Part shown: one piece after another, positions 1 through 9,252 of the stretch | Layout: every line of letters starts with the position of its first letter | Numbering within the stretch: position 1 is the first letter of the stretch | NCBI GenBank assembly: GCA_001803565.1 | Contig: MHDQ01000023.1 | Location: 1-9,252 of the forward strand | Direction of reading: 5' to 3' | Source of the DNA: Nitrospinae bacterium RIFCSPLOWO2_12_FULL_45_22 | Lineage (GTDB): Bacteria > 2-12-FULL-45-22 | Length of the DNA: 9,252 bases | Translations under genes and position numbers: made by a program | The notes under the pieces: generated by a model | Seen by the model: only the letters and a program-made list of their open reading frames with translations | Databases searched by the model: none | Told to the model about the DNA's origin: nothing

Positions 1-129
1 GCGGCTACTGAAGTAAGTCCTATCACAGATTTACGGGCATCGGCAGAATATAGACGGGAGATGGTTAGAGTATTGCTTAAGAGAGGGATAAAGAGTGCCT
101 GGGAAGAATTAAAAAGAGTTAGGGGTTAA
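1..129 (+). CDS. FAD-binding (medium) subunit of a molybdenum hydroxylase, C-terminal fragment
   Basis: Frame 1 is open from the window edge to TAA at 127-129 and gives 42 residues. They include SPITDLRASAEYRREMVRVL, which resembles the end of the CO-dehydrogenase-type flavoprotein C-terminal domain (CoxM/XdhB-like), where an S(P/D)xxDxRASAEYR stretch is usual. In this family the subunit binds FAD and passes electrons from the 2Fe-2S subunit to the final acceptor. The stop lies 5 bp before the small-subunit start, so the genes are probably cotranscribed in the medium-small-large order known from cox operons. The N-terminal FAD-binding part lies outside the window, so only the family can be called. 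Confidence 0.85.
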   Translation, partial: AATEVSPITDLRASAEYRREMVRVLLKRGIKSAWEELKRVRG

Positions 130-134
130 CGAAC

Positions 135-596
135 ATGACCCACCAAATAGAATTAATAATAAATGGTGAGCACTATGAATTAATGGTAAAGGCTAATAAG
201 ACCCTTTTAGAACTCTTACGGGAAGATTTAGATTTGACCGGGACAAAAATGGGCTGTGGTACTGGAGATTGTGGTGCCTGTACCGTGCTACTTGATAACA
301 GACCTGTTAATGCCTGTTTGGTCTTAGCAGTAGAAGCCAGAGGTAAAGAGATAGTTACCATTGAAGGACTAGCCCAGGGTGAGACCCTCCATCCCCTCCA
401 GCAGGCCTTTATTGATCACGGAGCAGTACAGTGTGGGTTCTGCACCCCTGGTATGATCCTCACGGCTAAAGCCCTGCTCGATAATAACCCCAATCCTACT
501 GAACCGATGATCCGAAGGGCTATTGCAGGAAACATCTGCCGCTGTACGGGCTATACCAAGATTGTAAAGGCTATTATGGCAGTAGCTTCTAGATAG
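135..596 (+). CDS. 2Fe-2S (small) subunit of a xanthine dehydrogenase/CO dehydrogenase-family molybdenum hydroxylase
   Basis: This 153-residue protein has the normal length and all eight cluster ligands of CoxS-type subunits. The plant-ferredoxin-like N-terminal domain has C41, C46, C49 and C61 (CGTGDCGACTVLLD, then NAC). The helical second domain has C100, C103, C135 and C137 (QCGFCTPGM and CRCTGY). The two [2Fe-2S] clusters relay electrons from the molybdenum centre in the large subunit to FAD in the medium subunit. The ATG at 135 follows an AGGGGT stretch about 8 bp upstream and sits 5 bp after the previous stop, consistent with translational coupling. No signal peptide is present, so the enzyme should be cytoplasmic. 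The family call is secure, the substrate is not. Confidence 0.95.
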   Translation: MTHQIELIINGEHYELMVKANKTLLELLREDLDLTGTKMGCGTGDCGACTVLLDNRPVNACLVLAVEARGKEIVTIEGLAQGETLHPLQQAFIDHGAVQCGFCTPGMILTAKALLDNNPNPTEPMIRRAIAGNICRCTGYTKIVKAIMAVASR

Positions 597-609
597 GATA
601 TTTAACATT

Positions 610-2967
610 ATGGCAGAATATAAAGTCATAGGACAGAATCTTCCTAGGGTAGATGCACAGGATAAGGTTACGGGCCGTGCTAAGTATTCCTTGGACATAA
701 AACTCCCTAGGATGCTTTCTGGCCGGATACTAGGGAGTATGTTCCCGCATGCTAAAATCCTTAAGATCGATGCCAGTAGAGCTAAGCGCTTAGCAGGAGT
801 AAAAGCAGTCATTACAGCAGATGACATACCAGATGTGCGCTGGGGCTTCATATTGAAAGACCGCACAATACTGGCTCACGAAAAAGTAAGGTATATTGGT
901 GAACCGATAGCTGCCGTGGCTGCTATTGATGAAGAGACTGCTGATGAGGCCCTGGAGCTTATCCAAATAGAATGTCAAGAATTGCCTGCCATATTTCATC
1001 CTGAAGAAGCTATGGCTGTAGGGGCGACCCTTATCCATGAGGAGCTGCACAGTTATACTGCTATGGGAGAAATTATCCGCAAAAACAATGTCTGTTCCCA
1101 TACTGTTATCCAGCAAGGTGATATCGAGACAGGCTTCAGCGGTTCAGATGAGGTCTTTGAAGATTGTTTTACTACCCAGATGGTACATCAATGTTATCTA
1201 GAGCCCCATGTAGCAGTATGTGATGTAAATCATTCAGGTAATCTTACTATTTGGACCAGTACCCAGTCCCCCTTCTTTGTCAGGAGTGAGCTGGCTGAGA
1301 CATTATTAATGCCCATAAGTAAGATCAAAGTTATACCCCTTAATGTTGGAGGAGGTTTTGGTGGTAAATTCGGTATCCTGCTAGAGCCGATCTGTGCCTT
1401 ATTGGCTAAGAAAAGTAATCGGCCCGTAAAGATAGTCATGACTCGAAAAGAGGAGTTTACTACGGCTAACCCACGGCATCCTACTATCATGAAGCTCCGT
1501 ACTGGAGTAAAAAAGGATGGGACATTAGTTGCTCGAGCAGCTACTTTGATTTATGATACCGGGGCATTTGCTGGTATGGGCCCAATAGTCAGTTGCAATG
1601 GTGCTAAATTTATTACAGGACCTTACCGGATACCCCATATAATGATCAATAGCTACTGTGTCTATACCAATAAAACACCGGCTAATCTCTGCCGTGGAGC
1701 TGGTAGTCCCCAAGCTACTTTTGCCTCGGAATCGCAGATGGATATTATTGCTACCAAGCTCGGCATAGATCCCCTAGAATTGCGCTTAAAAAATGGTGTA
1801 GAAGAAGGGGATATGTCTTCCACAGGACAGGTTTTACATGGGGTAGGATTCAAAGGAACTCTAAGGCTAGCGAGCCAGAAAGCTCCCTGGGTACCACATA
1901 AACCGGATATCTATCAAGGTAAAGGAATAGGATGCTTGCAGTATGAGACCGGTACTTTGGGTTCCAGTTGCTGCATAAGGTTGAATGAAGATGGAACTTT
2001 TGCTTTGATCATAGGGACTATAGAAATAGGACAGGGCTCTACTACTATCCTTAGGCAGATAGCAGCCGAAGGCCTAGGCGTCCCGGTAGAAGCAGTTAAT
2101 ACAGCTATCGGAGATACCGATATAGCACCTTACGATATGGGTACTGGTGCCGATAGGGTAACTTTCAGTATGGGTAATGCCGTACTGGTCGCTGTTAGAG
2201 ATATGAAGGCCCAATTGTTCCAGATAGGTGCTATGCTGCTCGAGGCCAATCCCGACGATATAGAATTGCAAGACGGTAAAATAATAGTCAGAGGTGCTCC
2301 AGAAAGAGGTATACCTTTATCAGATCTAGCTATGGCTTGCCATATGCTGAAAGGTGGTCCGATACTAGCTAAAGGGTCTTATCTTGCCGAAGAGCCACCT
2401 TTTAATACCCAGAGTATCAAAGGAGGTTTTTTCCCTTCTACACCAGCACCTACTTTTGCTACCCAGATAGCGGATCTAAAAATAGACCCTGAGACTGGTC
2501 AGGTAGAGCTCCTGAAGATTACGGCTGCCCATGATGTAGGCTTTGCTATTAACCCTATGGCGGTTGAGGGGCAGATTGAAGGAGGGGTAGTGATGGGTGG
2601 TGGATATGCATTGTCAGAGGAGATAATATTTGACCAGGGCAAGATTATTAACCCTAAGTTAGCTGATTATAAGCTCCCTACTGCCCTGGATGCACCCCAG
2701 ATAGAGGCTTTAATAGTGCAAGAGCGGTCTTTGACTGGTCCTTTTGGTGCCAAAGGAGTGGGCGAGCCCGGTGCTGCACCTACCGCCCCAGCTATTGCTA
2801 ATGCTATATATTCTGCAGTAGGAGTCAGGGTAAAGGATTTACCTATCACGGCTGAAAAACTCTACTGGGCCCTTAAGCACAATGTAAGCGTTCAGCCCTC
2901 AGCAATCAGCGGTCAGCAAAATAAGGCAATAGGCGATAGGCAAAAAAATCTAGCTCCTGACCTCTAG
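610..2967 (+). CDS. Molybdopterin-binding (large, catalytic) subunit of a xanthine dehydrogenase-family hydroxylase
   Basis: The 785-residue protein has the family layout: an N-terminal aldehyde oxidase/XDH a/b-hammerhead domain (about 20-130), then two molybdopterin-binding domains. Visible motifs are GGGFGGK (247-253), CRGAGSPQ (361-368), EIGQGS (472-477) and GVGEPG (716-721); E719 corresponds to the catalytic Glu1261 of bovine xanthine oxidase. Against the bovine sequence recalled from memory, Glu802 becomes F254, Arg880 becomes about N330 and Phe914 becomes A364, so xanthine is not the obvious substrate. R362 (bovine Arg912) is kept. The CoxL form-I signature is absent, so this is not an aerobic CO dehydrogenase. 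The ATG follows AGGAT at 595-599. The last 26 or so residues after YWALKHN are encoded by a palindromic repeat and are unlikely to be native. Confidence 0.93.
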   Translation: MAEYKVIGQNLPRVDAQDKVTGRAKYSLDIKLPRMLSGRILGSMFPHAKILKIDASRAKRLAGVKAVITADDIPDVRWGFILKDRTILAHEKVRYIGEPIAAVAAIDEETADEALELIQIECQELPAIFHPEEAMAVGATLIHEELHSYTAMGEIIRKNNVCSHTVIQQGDIETGFSGSDEVFEDCFTTQMVHQCYLEPHVAVCDVNHSGNLTIWTSTQSPFFVRSELAETLLMPISKIKVIPLNVGGGFGGKFGILLEPICALLAKKSNRPVKIVMTRKEEFTTANPRHPTIMKLRTGVKKDGTLVARAATLIYDTGAFAGMGPIVSCNGAKFITGPYRIPHIMINSYCVYTNKTPANLCRGAGSPQATFASESQMDIIATKLGIDPLELRLKNGVEEGDMSSTGQVLHGVGFKGTLRLASQKAPWVPHKPDIYQGKGIGCLQYETGTLGSSCCIRLNEDGTFALIIGTIEIGQGSTTILRQIAAEGLGVPVEAVNTAIGDTDIAPYDMGTGADRVTFSMGNAVLVAVRDMKAQLFQIGAMLLEANPDDIELQDGKIIVRGAPERGIPLSDLAMACHMLKGGPILAKGSYLAEEPPFNTQSIKGGFFPSTPAPTFATQIADLKIDPETGQVELLKITAAHDVGFAINPMAVEGQIEGGVVMGGGYALSEEIIFDQGKIINPKLADYKLPTALDAPQIEALIVQERSLTGPFGAKGVGEPGAAPTAPAIANAIYSAVGVRVKDLPITAEKLYWALKHNVSVQPSAISGQQNKAIGDRQKNLAPDL

Positions 2968-3022
2968 CCTCTTGCCCATAGCCTGTTTTAGCTGAAAGCT
3001 GACGGCTGATAGCTGAACGCTT
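2886..3022. repeat. Imperfect 137-bp palindromic repeat made of 7-nt units, overlapping the 3' end of the large-subunit gene
   Basis: The left arm (2888-2917) and the reverse complement of the right arm (2991-3020) match at 24 of 30 positions; the six mismatches fall in pairs between TCAGC blocks. Each arm is therefore a run of degenerate TCAGCNN heptads, bounded by AAGCGTTCAGC on the left and GCTGAACGCTT on the right. The interior continues a second heptad family (ATAGGCN, for example GGCAATAGGCGATAGGC, with inverted partners near 2972-2985). Repeats of this appearance occur in dispersed copies in some environmental bacterial genomes. Here the element supplies the last codons and the stop of the upstream gene and leaves only 20 bp before the next start. 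It is non-coding by origin and could form a long hairpin in the operon mRNA. Confidence 0.75.
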
Positions 3023-3042
3023 CCAGCAAAAAATTACTCCAG

Positions 3043-4071
3043 ATGAATAGTAAAAAGATTAGAATAGAAGAAGCTATTGGTTTACCTTTAGCCCATGATC
3101 TTACTCGGATCATTCCTGGTGAGTTTAAAGGAGCAGCCTTCAAACGGGGACATATTATACAGAAAGAAGATATTGGTCAACTCAAGGCCATAGGTAAGGA
3201 AAGCATTTATATATTAGAATTGTCTCCTGAAGAAATACACGAAGACGAAGCAGCTATACAAATAGCTGAGGCAGTAACTACCAATGATTTTTTTATCACT
3301 GAGCCTTGTGAAGGGAAGGCCAATATAAAGAGCCGTACGATGGGTTTACTCAAAGTGGATAAAGACCTCCTGTGCCAGATAAATTCGCTGGCGGGAATAA
3401 TCCTTGCTACTTTACACAGTGGTACCTTATGCCGACCAGAAATGGTAGTAGCTGCTACCAGGATCATACCACTAGCTATAGAAAAAAAATGGCTTGAGGC
3501 GATAGAGAAGCTATGTCGGGAACAAGATAAAGTCATTAGCCTGCAGCAGCTAAAGAGTAAAAAAGTGGGGATAGTTATTACTGGCAATGAGATTTATCAT
3601 GGGATGATAAAAGATAGCTCAGGTGATATCATGCAAGGGAAGCTTGAGTCTTATGGTTCTCACGTGACTAGAAGGATCATTGTTCCGGATGACCCTATTG
3701 AGATTGCCCAGGCTATTCGCCTCTTACGAGAAAGTGGAAGTGAGATGATCTTAGTGACTGGAGGGATGTCAGTAGATCCCGATGATGTAACATTAGAAGG
3801 AGTAAAAGAAGCTAAAGCCAGTATTATTTTCTATGGTATACCTATATTACCAGGTTCAATGCTGCTATATGCCGTATTAGGTAGTACTCCTATCTTAGGC
3901 GTACCAGCCTGTGCTATCTATCATAAAGCTACTGCCCTTGATATAATCCTTCCTAAAGTATTAGCTGAGGAAGATATTACTAAAGATGACATAATTACTC
4001 TGGGACACGGCGGTCTTTGTCTCCATTGTGGTAACTGCCATTTTCCGGCATGCCCTTTCGGAAAGGAATAA
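3043..4071 (+). CDS. MoeA/MoCF-domain molybdopterin-binding protein with a C-terminal four-cysteine motif
   Basis: The 342-residue protein contains a MoCF_biosynth (MoeA/MogA/CinA-type) fold from about residue 174 on. It shows GIVITGNEI (176-184) and VTGGMSVDPDDVT (238-250), the glycine-rich and Asp motifs that bind molybdopterin or MPT-AMP. Residues 1-170 are not a typical MoeA N-terminus. The extreme C-terminus carries C326-x2-C329-x2-C332-x4-C337, which could bind zinc or an Fe-S cluster. Similar proteins sit in molybdenum hydroxylase operons of anaerobes, so a role in Mo-cofactor insertion or modification is likely; the exact reaction is unknown. The start has no good Shine-Dalgarno sequence, perhaps because the repeat at 2886-3022 replaced the native leader. 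Coupling to the upstream gene may also have been lost. Confidence 0.8.
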   Translation: MNSKKIRIEEAIGLPLAHDLTRIIPGEFKGAAFKRGHIIQKEDIGQLKAIGKESIYILELSPEEIHEDEAAIQIAEAVTTNDFFITEPCEGKANIKSRTMGLLKVDKDLLCQINSLAGIILATLHSGTLCRPEMVVAATRIIPLAIEKKWLEAIEKLCREQDKVISLQQLKSKKVGIVITGNEIYHGMIKDSSGDIMQGKLESYGSHVTRRIIVPDDPIEIAQAIRLLRESGSEMILVTGGMSVDPDDVTLEGVKEAKASIIFYGIPILPGSMLLYAVLGSTPILGVPACAIYHKATALDIILPKVLAEEDITKDDIITLGHGGLCLHCGNCHFPACPFGKE

Positions 4072-4094
4072 CCTTATTTTGAAGAGATTAGTCC

Positions 4095-5168
4095 ATGGAA
4101 GATATTTATCGAGAGATTAAGCGATTAAGAACAGATAGGGAAAAAGCTGTTTTGGCCACTGTTATAACTAAATTGGGTTCCGCGCCCAGGGAAAAAGGGG
4201 CTAAGCTGTTAGTAAGAGAAGATGGAAGCTCCATAGGCTCTATTTCTGGCGGGTGTGTGGAGGCTGAAACCTGGCAGGAAGCCATGCAAGTCATGCAGAC
4301 AGGGGAAAGCAAGGTTATTGGCTTTCATCTTACCGAAAAAGAAGCGGTAGAGAGTGGACTTATATGCGGTGGTAGGATAGAAGTTTATCTGGAGCCTTTA
4401 TGGATGGATTATGCCTCTGAGGAAGGTGATATATTTGAAGAAATTACCCATATTCTATCCAGGGAAGGGAGGGCTTTTCTGGCAACGGCTATAAAAAGAG
4501 AGGCATCTAAGGGGCAAGAAAAGATTTTAATAAGACAAGAAGGGTCTACCTTAGGAAGTTTAGGAGACAAGCTTTTAGATAACTCGATTATAACCCATAC
4601 CAGAGAAATGATAGGAAAAGAAGAGCCCGTCCTGGTAACCATAAAAAATTCTCAGAATAAGGAATGCGAGATCTATCTGGAACCCATCTTGCCCACTCCC
4701 ATCCTATTTATATTTGGTGGAGGGCACATCTCTTTACCCCTTGCCCGAATTGCTAAAATAGTTGGGTTCAAGGTAGCAGTGATAGATGATCGGGAACTAT
4801 ATGCCAACAAGGATAGATTTCCAGAGGCAGATGAAATATATCCCCTCGAATTCGAAAATTTTTTTGAACAGTTTGAATTATCCCCCAGGGCTTATATTGT
4901 TATCGTTACTCGGGGTCACTTGCATGATGAGCTAGTATTAGAGAAGGCCCTGAAGACTGAAGCCGCTTATATAGGTATGATTGGCAGCAAGCGCAAGGTC
5001 AGGTATACCTATGACAACCTCATGCGCAAAGAAATAACAGAGGAGCAGCTTTCCCGGGTCCATGCCCCTATCGGATTAGATATAAAAGCTGAGACGCCTG
5101 AGGAGATTGCCATAAGCATCATGGCAGAGATTATCAAAATAAGGAGGCATTATCTTGCCAGGGGATAA
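4095..5168 (+). CDS. xdhC: XdhC/CoxI-family molybdenum cofactor maturation protein
   Basis: The 357-residue protein has both family domains. The N-terminal XdhC_CoxI domain reads ATVITKLGSAPREKGAKLLV (21-40) followed by GSISGGCVE (48-56). The C-terminal XdhC Rossmann domain reads FIFGGGHIS (GGGH at 208-211), then VTRGHLHDELVLEKAL and YIGMIGSKRKV. In characterised relatives XdhC binds molybdenum cofactor, helps its sulfuration and delivers it to the large subunit, which fits a place 23 bp after the MoCF-domain gene and behind the structural genes. C54 in the SGGCVE motif is the conserved Cys thought to matter for cofactor handling. The ATG at 4095 has only a weak GAAGAG-like ribosome site. This is the last gene of the plus-strand operon in view. 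Confidence 0.92.
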   Translation: MEDIYREIKRLRTDREKAVLATVITKLGSAPREKGAKLLVREDGSSIGSISGGCVEAETWQEAMQVMQTGESKVIGFHLTEKEAVESGLICGGRIEVYLEPLWMDYASEEGDIFEEITHILSREGRAFLATAIKREASKGQEKILIRQEGSTLGSLGDKLLDNSIITHTREMIGKEEPVLVTIKNSQNKECEIYLEPILPTPILFIFGGGHISLPLARIAKIVGFKVAVIDDRELYANKDRFPEADEIYPLEFENFFEQFELSPRAYIVIVTRGHLHDELVLEKALKTEAAYIGMIGSKRKVRYTYDNLMRKEITEEQLSRVHAPIGLDIKAETPEEIAISIMAEIIKIRRHYLARG

Positions 5169-5225: not shown

Positions 5226-5750
5226 TTAGAAACTGGCGGTAAGCAGGTCTAACAATTCCAGGGCAAAGTCTTTAGAAGCCCTCTGTAATGCCTCTTGTTT
5301 ACCGGCTTCGCTACTGGAGATAGATTCACTTACCCGATATTCTCGGTAAGTATCCAGGGTTTGTTGAAAAATGATTTTCTTTTTCTTAATATCCCGAAGG
5401 GTAATGAGGATAGCCATATTTAGCCGATATTCGGTAACATTGTCTTGAGGATCAAAAGCCAGAGGTGTAAGCACATAAGAATGAATCTCGCCGGTTAAGA
5501 TAGCATCGGCCCTATTACGGGCACCAATCTTTACTCTACCATCGGTCAGGAATTCTTGCCTGACAGTCCGGGTAATTTCTCTTTCGATCTGCGGTTCACC
5601 GGTCTTATTGACAAAGATAGGGATAAATACCTGCTTAATATTGCCCGGAAGGCCTTGTCCGCTCCCTACCAGCCTGTACCCACAGCCTATAGTTGCTATG
5701 AGAATGACTACTAATAATACTGAAATAATGCCCGAAATGCGTGGTATCAT
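5226..5750 (-). CDS. lptE: LptE-type outer-membrane LPS-assembly lipoprotein
   Basis: The 174-residue protein begins with a hydrophobic signal (residues 5-21, ISGIISVLLVVILIATI) ending in G22-C23, followed by CGYRLVG, the usual mature start of LptE-like lipoproteins. The -3 position is Thr, so the lipobox is imperfect but plausible. The LPGNIKQVFIPIFVNKT stretch (34-50) and the two-helix, b-sheet pattern match the family. LptE forms the plug of the LptD translocon that places lipopolysaccharide in the outer membrane, so the host should be diderm. The start is supported by AAGGGAG (5761-5767) 10 bp upstream. The gene converges on xdhC and is not obviously linked to either neighbour's function. 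The call rests on N-terminal motifs; distant LptE homologues are variable. Confidence 0.82.
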   Translation of the reverse strand: MIPRISGIISVLLVVILIATIGCGYRLVGSGQGLPGNIKQVFIPIFVNKTGEPQIEREITRTVRQEFLTDGRVKIGARNRADAILTGEIHSYVLTPLAFDPQDNVTEYRLNMAILITLRDIKKKKIIFQQTLDTYREYRVSESISSSEAGKQEALQRASKDFALELLDLLTASF

Positions 5751-5760
5751 AATGCAACAT

Positions 5761-5767
5761 CTCCCTT
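5761..5767 (-). promoter_or_regulatory. Ribosome binding site of lptE
   Basis: On the minus strand AAGGGAG lies 10 bp before the ATG at 5750 and supports that start. The repeat element begins 3 bp further upstream, so any lptE promoter must lie in or beyond it. Confidence 0.6.
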
Positions 5768-5770
5768 AAC

Positions 5771-5921
5771 CACGAATTACACGATAATACGGATGATACA
5801 AATAACCACAGAGGACACAGAGCCTGTAGCAGCCCGTCTTACGGTGCTATAGACCTTTAGCAGGGTAAGGCCCTGCGGCTACCTCTTCATTCGGGTTATT
5901 GGTACGTTCGTGCAATTCGTG
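5771..5921. repeat. Repeat element of about 150 bp with inverted ends and two internal hairpins
   Basis: The ends are inverted copies: CACGAATTACACGA (5771-5784) and the reverse complement of 5908-5921, CACGAATTGCACGA, match at 13 of 14 positions. A further AATAACC match lies inside (5801-5807 and its inverted partner near 5894-5900). The interior holds CCACAGAGGACACAGAG (5806-5822), a phrase that recurs in many bacterial intergenic repeats. It also holds two hairpins: TAGCA..CCGT-ctt-ACGG.TGCTA (5827-5849) and GCAGGG-taagg-CCCTGC (5860-5876). No gene is visible. It reads as a composite of REP-like or MITE-like non-autonomous sequence. No target-site duplication was found. Confidence 0.6.
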
Positions 5922-5937
5922 TTTTCTGTGATGATTT

Positions 5938-5944
5938 GTTAGAC
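5938..5944 (-). other. R''-type core box of a truncated or repeat-invaded attC (attC3)
   Basis: The minus strand reads GTCTAAC, a perfect RYYYAAC box, 10 bp after the stop of the 235-residue gene. Its exact complement, GTTAGAC, is the R' box at the head of the same cassette (6747-6753), as expected for the two halves of one cassette's attC. A clear partner R' box downstream is missing. The best candidate, GTTAAGG at 5764-5770, matches only GTTRRR and is 168-181 bp away across the repeat element. The site is probably degraded, or its 3' half was replaced. Confidence 0.55.
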
Positions 5945-5953
5945 AACAAAAAG

Positions 5954-6661
5954 TTATTTTTTGATAGATTCAGTTTTCTTCAACGTTCCATCGGGTTTGA
6001 TTCTTTCCTCAAGCCAACTCCAATCAATTGATCGGATCCGGGGAGTTGATTCTACAAATATCTTCCCATGACAAAATTCTCTCGTTTCATTTTCAACACT
6101 CCAGTACATTCCTTCTCCGCTATGTCCAATTATTGCTATTTCAATGGGATGCGATCCTCCTTCACCTGCTGGTATAATTTGCCTATGATTCCCATAGCGT
6201 AAAATCAAATCAGATGTAAAACCATAAAATTTTATTATAGAACCGGAGTAGATTAGATTTGGTGCCCTCCAAATTTGTCCAGGCTCAAGTGGTACGTACT
6301 GAGACATCACTTGCTGTGGCTGTCGTTCAGACTCTGACCGAACTGTCGCAAGTATGGTCTTATAAGCCTCAAGTTGTACTTCCATAGTGGATAATTGCTG
6401 CTCTAATGCTTTTGCTCTTTCTTTGGCTTCTTGTGTATTATTCACCGCCTCAGTTAGTTGAATTGACTTAATTTTTGATTCTTGATTTGATTGATAGGTA
6501 ATTACAAGTGATGTAACAAAACCTAATAGAGCTAAGAACATAGTGATATAACCAGTTACTGTAAGTTTCTTTATACCAGTTTTACTCTTGTTCCATGTTC
6601 CACCTTTTATAGCCACAAGTGCTGCAAAGAATGTAATCAACTGCCCAAGATAATTAAACAT
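5954..6661 (-). CDS. Cassette-borne membrane protein of unknown function: two TM helices plus coiled coil
   Basis: I do not recognise this 235-residue protein. The N-terminus has two hydrophobic helices (about residues 4-19 and 36-55). A charged heptad-like stretch (about 58-108, rich in E, K, Q, A and L) looks like a coiled coil. A soluble C-terminal region (about 125-225) with PGQIWRAPN, GGSHPIEIAIIGHSGEGMYW and GKIFVESTPRIRSIDW seems b-rich. The layout suggests an inner-membrane anchored sensor or scaffold. It is the only gene in cassette C, between attC2 upstream and the attC3 core box downstream, so lateral acquisition is likely. The start is secure: AAGGAGA lies 6 bp before the ATG. Several unknown cassette proteins have this TM-plus-coil design, but no function can be given. 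Confidence 0.75.
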   Translation of the reverse strand: MFNYLGQLITFFAALVAIKGGTWNKSKTGIKKLTVTGYITMFLALLGFVTSLVITYQSNQESKIKSIQLTEAVNNTQEAKERAKALEQQLSTMEVQLEAYKTILATVRSESERQPQQVMSQYVPLEPGQIWRAPNLIYSGSIIKFYGFTSDLILRYGNHRQIIPAGEGGSHPIEIAIIGHSGEGMYWSVENETREFCHGKIFVESTPRIRSIDWSWLEERIKPDGTLKKTESIKK

Positions 6662-6667
6662 GATCCA

Positions 6668-6687
6668 TCTCCTTATTTTAAATAAGG
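6668..6687 (-). promoter_or_regulatory. Strong ribosome binding site with an overlapping hairpin
   Basis: AAGGAGA (6668-6674, minus) is the Shine-Dalgarno sequence of the 235-residue gene. Its AAGG is also the 3' arm of an inverted repeat (6671-6687, CCTTATTT and AAATAAGG on the minus strand). A stem of 6-7 bp with a 3-5 nt loop would pair part of the ribosome site and could lower translation. The stem is A/T-rich and weak. Confidence 0.45.
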
Positions 6688-6746
6688 ACGGCCAATGGTG
6701 GTTTCATATATACTTTCATGCTCCTTGCTCTACACTTGTGGTTGTT

Positions 6747-6805
6747 GTCTAACGAAAAAATCAGCCGCCACGCTTTTTATGGTCGGCTGGATGGGCTTGT
6801 TAGAT
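6747..6805 (-). other. attC recombination site (59-base element), attC2
   Basis: On the minus strand the 59-bp site runs from R'' ATCTAAC (6799-6805, fits RYYYAAC) to R' GTTAGAC (6747-6753, fits GTTRRRY). The inner boxes CAGCCGACC and GGCGGCTG pair with a single unpaired A on the L'' side, the asymmetry that integrase uses to choose the strand. This orientation agrees with the minus-strand genes. The crossover point would be between G6753 and T6752. The R'' box contains the TAA stop codon of the DUF2442 gene. This is the best-formed site in the window and the main evidence for an integron-type array. Confidence 0.85.
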
Positions 6806-7066
6806 CATTTTTTTATAATACGTTAAATCTTTGTTCCCCAATATTAAACCCGGAACGCTAATATCTTCATCTATTTCTTCCCAATGAATTCCTGTGCCAC
6901 CTCCGCTTAACTCATAATTATTTCTCTGTTCAGAAGTAGCATTTAACAAACGTGGAAAATAAACTAAAGGAATGGAAAGTTGCCTTCCATCCGTTAAAGC
7001 AACCCACATATTTTCTTTATCAAACCAAATTCTTGTTGCATTTGCTTCAAATGTTAAAGTGCTCAT
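6800..7066 (-). CDS. DUF2442-domain protein, second gene of a cassette-borne pair
   Basis: The 88-residue protein follows the DUF2442 pattern from memory: IWFDKENMWVALTDGRQLSI, then PLVYFPRLLNATSEQRNNYE, GGGTGIHWEEIDEDISVPGL and a short basic tail. No catalytic residues are established. DUF2442 genes often sit beside DUF4160 genes and recur in integron cassettes; a toxin-antitoxin-like role has been proposed by arrangement only. Here it overlaps the DUF4160 gene by 20 bp and has a strong GAGGAG ribosome site (7074-7079) inside that gene, so the two are translationally linked. Its stop codon lies in the R'' box of attC2, which means the cassette has no spare sequence at its 3' end. Confidence 0.85.
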   Translation of the reverse strand: MSTLTFEANATRIWFDKENMWVALTDGRQLSIPLVYFPRLLNATSEQRNNYELSGGGTGIHWEEIDEDISVPGLILGNKDLTYYKKMI

Positions 7067-7292
7067 TCCATTTCTCCTCTATTAATTGACTTTTATCTTC
7101 TACCACTTTTCTGAATTCATTCAATTCCTTACTTGAAAATCCATAATTATATTCAAGGCTGACAAATGGTTTAATCCAAAATTTAGCTCTATTCGGACCT
7201 TTTCGGACATGAATATGGATTGGTTCCAATGGATAACCCTCATTTGAAAAGAAAAGAAACCTATGTCCTTTCCAATTAAAAACTTTTGGCAT
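7047..7292 (-). CDS. DUF4160-domain protein, first gene of a cassette-borne pair
   Basis: The 81-residue protein matches DUF4160: MPKVFNWKGHRFLFFSNEGY, then EPIHIHVRKG, AKFWIKPFVSLEYNYGF, SSKELNEFRKVVED and EEKWNEHF. The HIHV motif and the small a/b layout are typical of the family; the biochemical role is unknown. It overlaps DUF2442 by 20 bp in the usual order. No Shine-Dalgarno sequence precedes the ATG at 7292, but TATAAT ends 6 bp upstream (7299-7304), so the mRNA may be leaderless. The cassette head, GTTATAT in attC1, lies 38 bp upstream, so a promoter, if real, is carried inside the cassette. Confidence 0.85.
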   Translation of the reverse strand: MPKVFNWKGHRFLFFSNEGYPLEPIHIHVRKGPNRAKFWIKPFVSLEYNYGFSSKELNEFRKVVEDKSQLIEEKWNEHFNI

Positions 7293-7298
7293 TTAATT

Positions 7299-7304
7299 AT
7301 TATA
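7299..7304 (-). promoter_or_regulatory. Possible -10 box for the DUF4160/DUF2442 cassette
   Basis: The minus strand has a perfect TATAAT ending 6 bp before the DUF4160 ATG, preceded by ACGA. Transcription from it would start at or near the A of ATG, giving a leaderless mRNA, which fits the missing ribosome site. There is no recognisable -35 at the right distance (TTTTAA at 7322-7327), and the region is A/T-rich, so the match could be chance. Confidence 0.35.
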
Positions 7305-7329
7305 TCGTAAGGCTTTCTTAATTAAAATG

Positions 7330-7402
7330 ATATAACGGTAGAGTTTACCCGCCGGCAATGAGCGCCAGCGAATGCCGGGCGGTGTAGAACGAATTGTTAG
7401 CG
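7330..7402 (-). other. attC-like recombination site, attC1
   Basis: On the minus strand the 73-bp site runs from CGCTAAC (7396-7402, one mismatch to RYYYAAC), followed by AATTCGTTC as in many attC sites, to GTTATAT (7330-7336, one mismatch to GTTRRRY). The middle holds an inverted repeat, ACCGCCCGGCA and TGCCGGCGGGT, 11 bp with two mismatches and a 15-nt spacer. The cassette that begins here (TTATAT) and its own R'' box in attC2 (complement TTAGAT) agree at 5 of 6 bases. It is more degenerate than attC2 but lies at the expected place, 25 bp after the end of the interrupted gene of cassette A. Confidence 0.7.
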
Positions 7403-7427: not shown

Positions 7428-7577
7428 CTATTTTCCTTGCATACTATCCAGATTTTGCCTTATCCACTTTTCTAGTTGGTCTGCAGCCTCATTAGTTACT
7501 TTTTCAAAATAAGCGGTATCCCTTTTGAGTCCATCAAATTTGACCATTAATTTTGAACAATTATTTTCTTTAACTAA
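7428..7577 (-). pseudogene. 3' fragment of the IS-interrupted cassette A gene
   Basis: The frame from the TTA target-site codon (7575-7577) runs for 48 more codons to TAG (7428-7430), starting VKENNCSKLMVKF and ending EKWIRQNLDSMQGK. Joining it to codon 225 of the 5' fragment (8500-8502) with one copy of the duplicated trinucleotide gives a continuous 273-codon gene. The C-terminus is a charged amphipathic helix. As it stands the fragment has no start or ribosome site and should be silent. The attC1 R'' box begins 25 bp downstream. Confidence 0.85.
7575..7577. repeat. Left copy of the IS target-site duplication (TAA)
   Basis: TAA here and TAA at 8500-8502 flank the IS directly. TNA is a usual target for the IS5/IS427-type group. 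Keeping one copy restores the interrupted reading frame, which independently supports the boundary. Confidence 0.8.
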
Positions 7578-7597
7578 GAGCTTATCCGTAAATAACT
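7578..7597. repeat. Left terminal inverted repeat of the IS
   Basis: The 20 bases starting GAGCTTATCC and ending AATAACT are identical to the reverse complement of 8480-8499; similarity stops after that. It contains the stop codon of the transposase (7582-7584, minus). Confidence 0.9.
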
Positions 7598-8040
7598 CCC
7601 ACCTTTCTAAAAGCTATAATAGAAGCTGCCAAGTGCAGAAGGGCTTCATAAGTATCATCCCGCTTTTCATAACGGACTAAAATCTTTCTGAATCTGTTGA
7701 ACCAGGAATGAGCTACCTCAACAACCCATCTTCTGGCTTTATAGCCCGGCACATTCTTCTTGGCCTCTATTTCCTTTCCTCGTTGCTTTACATGTGGAAC
7801 ATAACCCCGTTCTTTCATTATTTCCTTTGCCGGCTCTCCCGTATACCCTTTATCAGCGCAAAGGTTTTGAACCGTTCCTTCCGGCGGCGAAACTACACGA
7901 CCATCCAAAACTGCTGCAAGCTGCGATACATCATGCCGGTTTGCTCCTGTTACGATAATCGATAGAGGGACGCCAATTCCGTCCACAAGGATATGACGCT
8001 TGCTTCCATTTTTTTCCCCTGTCCGTTGGATTGGGGCCAA
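7582..8040 (-). CDS. IS5-family transposase, C-terminal frame (orfB)
   Basis: This frame holds the last two catalytic acidic residues of the DDE nuclease: D63 in LCADKGYTGEP and E108 in RRWVVEVAHSWFNRFRKIL, counted from a nominal TTG at 8040. NGSKRHILVDGIGVPLSI and GANRHD are also typical. The TTG start is probably not used; the frame is more likely reached from orfA by frameshift or slippage at the A7 run (8009-8015), because orfA holds the first catalytic Asp. Alone, orfB cannot make an active enzyme. It ends in RKVGVIYG, whose last codons and stop lie in the left terminal repeat. Confidence 0.88.
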   Translation of the reverse strand: MAPIQRTGEKNGSKRHILVDGIGVPLSIIVTGANRHDVSQLAAVLDGRVVSPPEGTVQNLCADKGYTGEPAKEIMKERGYVPHVKQRGKEIEAKKNVPGYKARRWVVEVAHSWFNRFRKILVRYEKRDDTYEALLHLAASIIAFRKVGVIYG

Positions 8041-8422
8041 CAGCTATCTGAGCTAAGGGAGCTTTTACCATTGCTCCATCAATACTTTGCCATTCCCAGG
8101 CTATCCCCTCCATCTCGTCATATTCAGCAAGACCTGCCTGCCACAACCTGAGAAAAAAGCCTTCCTTTAACCAGTATATGAAATAGGCATGTATTGAGCT
8201 TGAACTGCCAAAGCGTTCCTTGGGCAGTGCCTTCCACTGGCATCCTGTTCGCAACACATACACAATTCCTTCAAAAATAGTACGCGGAGGTTTTTGTCTG
8301 CGGCCACCTCCGGGCTTACGTTTATACTCCTTCTTCTCGTCTCTTTTAGTGGGTGGTGGAATTAGAGATTCCGCCTTCTCCCAAAATGCATCCGATACTT
8401 CCCAGGACAGTGTTTTTGCCAT
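7931..8422 (-). CDS. IS5-family transposase, N-terminal frame (orfA)
   Basis: I start this at the ATG 8420-8422, preceded by GGAGGGGG (8424-8431); the longer reading from 8461 lacks a ribosome site. The product begins MAKTLSWEVSDAFWEKAESL, the usual IS5 N-terminal DUF4096-like domain. It continues with GIVYVLRTGCQWKALPKERF and YFIYWLKEGFF, then SIDGAMVKAP with the first catalytic residue D115 and GPNPTDRGKK. After the A7 run the frame runs into KQASYPCGRNWRPSIDYRNR, which is out-of-frame translation, and stops at 7931. The natural continuation is in the other frame (DRGKNGSKRH). The gene is either frameshifted and dead, or expressed by slippage. Confidence 0.88.
   Translation of the reverse strand: MAKTLSWEVSDAFWEKAESLIPPPTKRDEKKEYKRKPGGGRRQKPPRTIFEGIVYVLRTGCQWKALPKERFGSSSSIHAYFIYWLKEGFFLRLWQAGLAEYDEMEGIAWEWQSIDGAMVKAPLAQIAVGPNPTDRGKKWKQASYPCGRNWRPSIDYRNRSKPA
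8009..8019 (-). promoter_or_regulatory. GGGGAAAAAAA run at the transposase frame switch
   Basis: The minus strand has G4 then A7 exactly where the two transposase frames must join. Reading six A instead of seven gives DRGKNGSKRH, the expected family sequence. It is thus either a one-base insertion mutation or a slippage site; loss of one A by polymerase slippage, or a +1 ribosomal shift, would produce full-length transposase. Confidence 0.5.
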
Positions 8423-8479
8423 ACCCCCTCCGCATTCGTTTTTGTCTGCGGAGTATAGCATTCCTATTTTAAATCTACA

Positions 8480-8499
8480 AGTTATTTACGGATAAGCTC
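8480..8499. repeat. Right terminal inverted repeat of the IS
   Basis: Its reverse complement is identical to 7578-7597 over 20 bases. Together with the TAA at 8500-8502 it fixes the right end of the element. The five codons ELIRK and the stop at the end of the 5' fragment come from this repeat. Confidence 0.9.
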
Positions 8500-9174
8500 T
8501 AATTCTTTTGCTCTTGTTTTCCATTTGCAAGTAGGATTACAATTGAATTTCGGCTTCCAATCTTTCCTTGCTTTGGCAATTATTCCTTGAACTTGATTAA
8601 AATTTTCACACTTTTCAATATCTTTTATGTATTCTGAATTTCCGTCATAAATATAATCATTAAATTGTATATGCTCTATTAATTCTATTTCTTTCATATC
8701 TTCAGGATTGTTGCTGACTAAAAATTCAATATTATCTTCGATACCCTCAATTAGTTTAACAGCAAATTCAGATATACTTTCATTAAGAGGCCTTTCTAGT
8801 TTAGGTTTTGTATCTCGCAACGACTTTGCTGAACTAACCAAAAATTCATCAAAATCGAGTTCTTCCACGTCAATATTGCCGGCGTGCTGAGTTACTGCTT
8901 CAGAATATTCTTCGCTGAATGACCATCCCTCCATTAATCCTTGCGATCTTTCAAACAAAATTATGGCAAGATCATGGTAAATCCAAGCTAACGGATATAT
9001 TATTTCGTCATATTTAATTCCAGAATGATAGAGTTCATTTCTGTAGCTATGAGCTATTAGTATTAGATCTGCTTCATCTGAAGAAATTTTATTTAATTTA
9101 TTTTTACAAAACTTAACCTTCTCATCAAAATGTTGCCCAAGTACTTTATTTTTTAAACTAGTAGTCTGTAACAT
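8482..9174 (-). pseudogene. 5' fragment of cassette A gene, HEPN-like protein, truncated by the IS
   Basis: The open frame has 230 codons, of which the first 225 are native and the last five (ELIRK) come from the IS. I do not recognise the family. An early region reads ADLILIAHSYRNELYHSGIK, where R45-N46-x3-H50 fits the RX4-6H active-site motif of HEPN ribonucleases and sits between predicted helices. A YPLAWIYHDLAIILFERSQG helix follows. The rest is acidic and helical. C-terminal Cys residues (NCNPTCKW, 213-220) might bind metal. HEPN proteins are common in defence and toxin systems, but one motif is weak evidence. ATG 9174 lacks a ribosome site, and an in-frame TAA lies just upstream. The intact protein would have had 273 residues, ending at 7428. 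Confidence 0.75.
8500..8502. repeat. Right copy of the IS target-site duplication (TAA)
   Basis: This trinucleotide is codon 225 (TTA, Leu) of the interrupted gene on the minus strand and pairs with the copy at 7575-7577. Confidence 0.8.
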
Positions 9175-9252
9175 TAATTAATATACTTATATCGTGAGAG
9201 GATCTCCCGTATAAGTCCAGCGAAATGGTTTTGAATTTTTGTTATACAGTTT
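9175..9252. other. Leader of cassette A up to the window edge
   Basis: No gene is visible. Read on the minus strand, ACGATATAA and AATTAATG just before the start resemble the leader of the DUF4160 gene (7290-7311). GTATAAC at 9241-9247 resembles an R'' box (one mismatch), which would place a preceding attC here. No clear R' box or inner stem was found, and the expected head of cassette A (GTTAGCG, complement of its R'') is not present in these bases. Confidence 0.3.

Follow-up and report, generated by a model that had tools for sequence, protein, structure and literature searches.

A partly decayed integron-type cassette array upstream of lptE in a Nitrospinae bacterium

The minus-strand genes upstream of lptE in this Nitrospinae bacterium very probably represent the distal end of an array of integron cassettes, which was fused to the host chromosome by the loss of its last attC site. 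The array is real and partly decayed, and it is a further example of an already known system. The window, i.e., the whole stretch of DNA that was analyzed (9252 bp), is identical with contig C23 of a draft genome of 3.67 Mb (321 contigs, 85% complete). According to profile searches, molybdenum hydroxylase genes and xdhC occupy positions 1-5168 and are followed by lptE on the minus strand, with the cassette array located upstream of the latter. All genes and attC sites of the array share the minus-strand orientation, and the cassette DNA exhibits a G+C-content of 31-38% versus 44% for the adjoining chromosomal genes. An Rfam search of the window yielded no match.

Two covariance models were used for the detection of attC sites. 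R1 was derived from 12 attC sites of other contigs of the same genome, selected for their box pattern and their folding, the window being held out, and R2 from 46 attC sites from integrons of other phyla, including no sequences of this genome. As the training sites of R2 were found with R1, the independence of the two is incomplete. A first-pass annotation of this DNA had described two attC-like sites between minus-strand genes and had proposed a covariance-model search; both models indeed returned matches at 6747-6805 and 7330-7402. The features of the array region are the following:

5938..5944, minus strand: lone R'' box GTCTAAC, the sole attC remnant in cassette C (forms an inverted repeat with the head of that cassette)
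5954..6661, minus strand: cassette C gene, open reading frame for a 235-aa protein, no family over cut-off
6747..6805, minus strand: attC site 1, between cassettes B and C (R1 41.9 bits, E 9.8e-8; R2 42.8 bits, E 1.4e-8)
6800..7066, minus strand: cassette B gene 2, DUF2442 protein, DhiA-like antitoxin candidate (Pfam E 2.4e-22)
7047..7292, minus strand: cassette B gene 1, DUF4160 protein, DhiT-like toxin candidate (Pfam E 3.7e-17)
7330..7402, minus strand: attC site 2, between cassettes A and B (R1 20.1 bits, E 0.0048; R2 37.4 bits, E 2.5e-7)
7428..7576, minus strand: putative detached 3' gene piece of cassette A, an open frame between the IS element and site 2
7577..8500, minus strand: IS5-type element in cassette A (inverted repeats, Pfam DUF4096 and DDE_Tnp)
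8482..9174, minus strand: 5' part of the interrupted cassette A gene, a 230-aa open reading frame ending inside the IS element
9157..9252, no strand assigned: contig-end repeat of 96 bp, shared at 99% identity with the start of contig C115

Both sites exhibit the attC architecture of R''/R' boxes, an L''/L' stem and extrahelical bases on one strand, each site having two single extrahelical bases with 5 bp between them. The boxes of site 1 are canonical (R'' ATCTAAC, R' GTTAGAC), and on the minus strand it reads ATCTAAC-AAGCCCATC-C-AGCCG-A-CCA...TGG-CGGCT-GATTTTTTC-GTTAGAC. In its fold R'' and R' are paired (DNA fold z about -3), and its extrahelical bases on the bottom (plus) strand are T and G, the usual pair. 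Site 2, which reads CGCTAAC-AATTCGTTCTAC-A-CCGCC-C-GGCA...TGCC-GGCGG-GTAAACTCTACC-GTTATAT on the minus strand, has imperfect boxes (R'' CGCTAAC, R' GTTATAT) and does not stand out by its fold score (z -1.0 to -1.4). Its extrahelical bases occur in reverse order relative to site 1. IntI1 favors sites of the T-N6-G or T-N6-C type, with wider types being accepted by other IntI (PMC3053210). Because of the other order of its extrahelical bases, site 2 may be the poorer recombination substrate.

Known integrons served as positive controls. The class 1 aadA1 attC was matched by both R1 and R2, R2 placed an attC after nearly every cassette in two resistance arrays, and in many named genomes across many phyla both models found attC next to intI, nearly all of these sites being upstream of intI and on the opposite strand. 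In 19 lptE loci of other genomes, which served as negative control, neither model detected any attC. It might still be argued that ordinary genes are separated here by chance palindromes or by terminators, as site 2, taken alone, is weak with R1 and ordinary in its fold. However, R1 and R2 agree on place and strand, and the remaining R1 matches in the window reach at most 7.7 bits, save for the opposite strand of site 1 with 10.7 bits. The cassette ends are, moreover, complementary over 12-13 nt. A chance origin of the sites is thus very improbable.

The complementarity of the cassette ends had already been proposed as a signature of integrated circular cassettes, based on a match between the cassette head (TTRRRY) and its own R'' box at six of six positions for cassette C and five of six for cassette B. 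The same counts were obtained here. On its own, however, this 6-mer is weak, since random pairings of real heads and tails match at 6/6 in 12% and at 5/6 or better in 46% of cases, and it was set aside as sole proof of cassettes. The match does extend beyond the six positions. The ends of cassette C form a perfect inverted repeat of 12 nt, which was reached in none of 5000 shuffles, and those of cassette B are complementary at 12 of 13 nt; the segments concerned are 5938-5949, 6742-6756, 6793-6805 and 7323-7335.

A similar tendency is seen in further cassettes, whose heads match their R'' boxes at 5.58 of 6 positions on average, compared to 4.42 for shuffled pairs. Past the R box, 33 cassettes of this genome match at 2.12 of the next five positions (1.28 if shuffled) and 47 cassettes of other phyla (L133-L193) at 2.51 (1.36 if shuffled), with none of 5000 shuffles reaching the observed value in either set. 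Resistance cassettes (L219/L220) match at three or more of these five positions in eight of nine comparisons, with one aadA1 cassette entering the nine twice, from two plasmids. The arms of cassettes B and C are the longest among the measured cassettes of this genome. As a statistical pattern the complementarity past the R box is strong here, and a limited literature search found no earlier description of it. It is conceivable, though rather doubtful at present, that head-tail complementarity past the 7-nt R box can give an excised circle a longer attC stem upon folding than is available to the integrated form, either as a scar of cassette birth or as an aid to reintegration of the circle.

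A complete attC at the tail is present for cassette B and for the remains of cassette A, but not for cassette C. The latter retains only the R'' of its attC and is for this reason classed as a decayed cassette. The first-pass annotation had reported a single R'' core box at 5938-5944; GTCTAAC is found there and nothing attC-like follows it. No attC match was obtained across 5700-6000, the best overlapping match scoring -0.2 bits. A dispersed intergenic repeat, of which contigs C129, C138 and C150 carry partial copies, is located at 5807-5891. The idea that this repeat had inserted into the last attC found no support, as its copies match 5807-5891 only and thus end well short of the R'' box. 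The protein of cassette C is probably membrane-anchored, with a pair of membrane helices, one long helix and a beta domain at the C-terminus, as judged from a single-sequence structure model with a mean pLDDT of 59, which was too poor for a structure search. No full-length relative was found in named genomes, viral contigs or plasmids, and a search of 386 genomes gave partial N-terminal matches only. A match to the PADLOC model 'gop' (E 0.00094) was rejected, because it spans the membrane and long-helix part only.

Cassette B is the sole cassette of the window with a complete attC on both sides. Its DUF2442 gene, which overlaps the preceding DUF4160 gene by 20 bp, has its stop codon in R'' of attC site 1. 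The same domain pair, with the toxin gene first and the genes overlapping, forms the demonstrated toxin-antitoxin system dhiTA of Dickeya dadantii (PMC8198452). Unlike dhiTA, the pair described here resides in an integron cassette, and its DUF4160 protein bears only a weak similarity to the NCBIfam model of DhiT (E 0.026, 15.1 bits, cut-off 100). As this score lies far below the cut-off, the pair is regarded as DhiTA-like in arrangement and is not assigned as DhiT itself. Judged by domains and gene order, cassette B likely encodes a toxin-antitoxin pair. A PDB sequence search with the DUF4160 protein gave chance-level matches only. Relatives of cassette B adjoin attC in five other genomes, in two of which they lie between two attC (L105, L125). 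Four more copies of DUF4160 occur in this genome, three of them on contigs with nearby attC matches, of which one is weak.

Cassette A is interrupted by the IS5-type element, which has perfect terminal inverted repeats of 21 bp and two overlapping transposase frames and is flanked by a TAA (or CTAA) direct repeat. No protein family matched the 230-aa frame, and a PDB sequence search with this protein returned chance-level matches only. On reading alone, the frame contains a HEPN-like motif, RNELYH. Its single-sequence structure prediction (mean pLDDT 38) was too poor for a structure search. The first codons of the frame are overlapped by the contig-end repeat, which probably represents one end of a mobile element that was not assembled.

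In agreement with the first-pass annotation, no integrase gene was found in the window and thereby on the contig. IntI genes were seen on other contigs only. A profile search of the genome yielded two intact IntI genes over the TIGR02249 cut-off, on C243 (467 bits) and C304 (439 bits), as well as several further copies which are truncated or internally deleted. The C243 IntI has relatives with up to 78% identity in another genome and with 45-63% across many phyla. The comparison genomes included one from the same order and none closer, the others being related at the domain level only. With R2, attC matches at E<=1 numbered at least 66 and were spread over 35 contigs of the genome, a lower bound as 150 of 437 candidates were scored. 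At least about 60 attC sites lie beyond the window. With two intact IntI, several remnants and this number of further attC, an integrase could act in trans.

Several of these loci deserve description. The intact IntI at C304:4451-5815 (L023; 454 aa) carries an N-terminal extension of about 130 residues and lies beside at least seven attC; a further IntI-like N-terminal fragment is found at C304:6842-7015. At C115:7412-9601 (L028), an internally deleted IntI is located beside two attC which flank a two-gene toxin-antitoxin-like cassette, and this locus is an integron with a dead integrase. The IntI remnants at C136:20148-20653 and C317:8631-9136 (L029, L030) lack the same middle part (model positions of about 125-268), as if both descended from one deleted copy.

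That the genes are integron-type cassettes, as had been proposed, is borne out by the two held-out models and their controls, by the common orientation, by the complementary ends and lower G+C-content of the cassettes, by the two IntI over the cut-off elsewhere in the genome and by the relatives of cassette B beside attC in other genomes; the lack of an IntI and of an evident attI on the contig and the imperfect site 2, weak with R1, speak against it. The linkage between array and integrase is unreadable and an orphan cluster is inseparable from a distal end, because the contig stops at 9252 inside the repeat shared with C115. The array could be a true CALIN, an orphan cluster whose integron lost intI or which was placed away from its integron. 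No IntI is found on the contig, the two attC lie about 0.5 kb apart, at least two attC being the default for a CALIN in IntegronFinder 2.0 (PMC9024848), and the many decayed IntI and scattered attC contigs of this genome, such as C115, would fit such an origin. However, the contig ends within a repeat just 1.85 kb past site 2, and split integrons in draft genomes are known to inflate CALIN counts (PMC9024848), which leaves this possibility slightly short of an even chance.

A standing just below evens is likewise given to the possibility that a complete chromosomal integron has its distal end in this array and its integrase beyond the contig end. The genome has two intact IntI, the one on C304 accompanied by an attC array, and the cassettes of the window all point one way, as if read away from an integrase beyond 9252. 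Yet C23 does not overlap with C243 or C304, and the only contig end it shares is that of C115, both contigs entering the same repeat.

On the minus strand the order is broken cassette A, attC, cassette B with DUF4160/DUF2442, attC, cassette C and R''. Under the preferred reading of a fused array end, the cassettes were joined by an IntI tyrosine recombinase, which recombines attC as a folded bottom strand and does so at G^TT, and a later loss of the last attC fused the array end to the host chromosome. By the established mechanism, cassette B, being alone in having a complete attC on both sides, would be the cassette which an IntI in trans could still excise, and cassette C would no longer be able to leave by itself. 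The pair of cassette B might act as a DhiTA-type toxin-antitoxin and help to keep the array.

With sedentary chromosomal integron arrays and CALINs the array shares the attC architecture, the single gene direction, toxin-antitoxin-like cargo and the presence of IntI in the genome. It differs in being short, interrupted by an IS element and deprived of its last attC after R'', in showing no integrase in cis on the contig and in belonging to an isolated lineage. The class 1 integron cassettes aadA1, aadA2 and qacL have attC matched by the same models and show head-tail complementarity past the R box; in contrast to them, the cargo of the window is not drug resistance and no attI1 or IntI1 is evident.

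These findings document an integron-rich genome in an isolated bacterial lineage and show that cassettes repeatedly carry a DhiTA-like pair. If the extended complementarity of cassette ends holds true in a large set, it would provide a testable handle on how cassettes are made.
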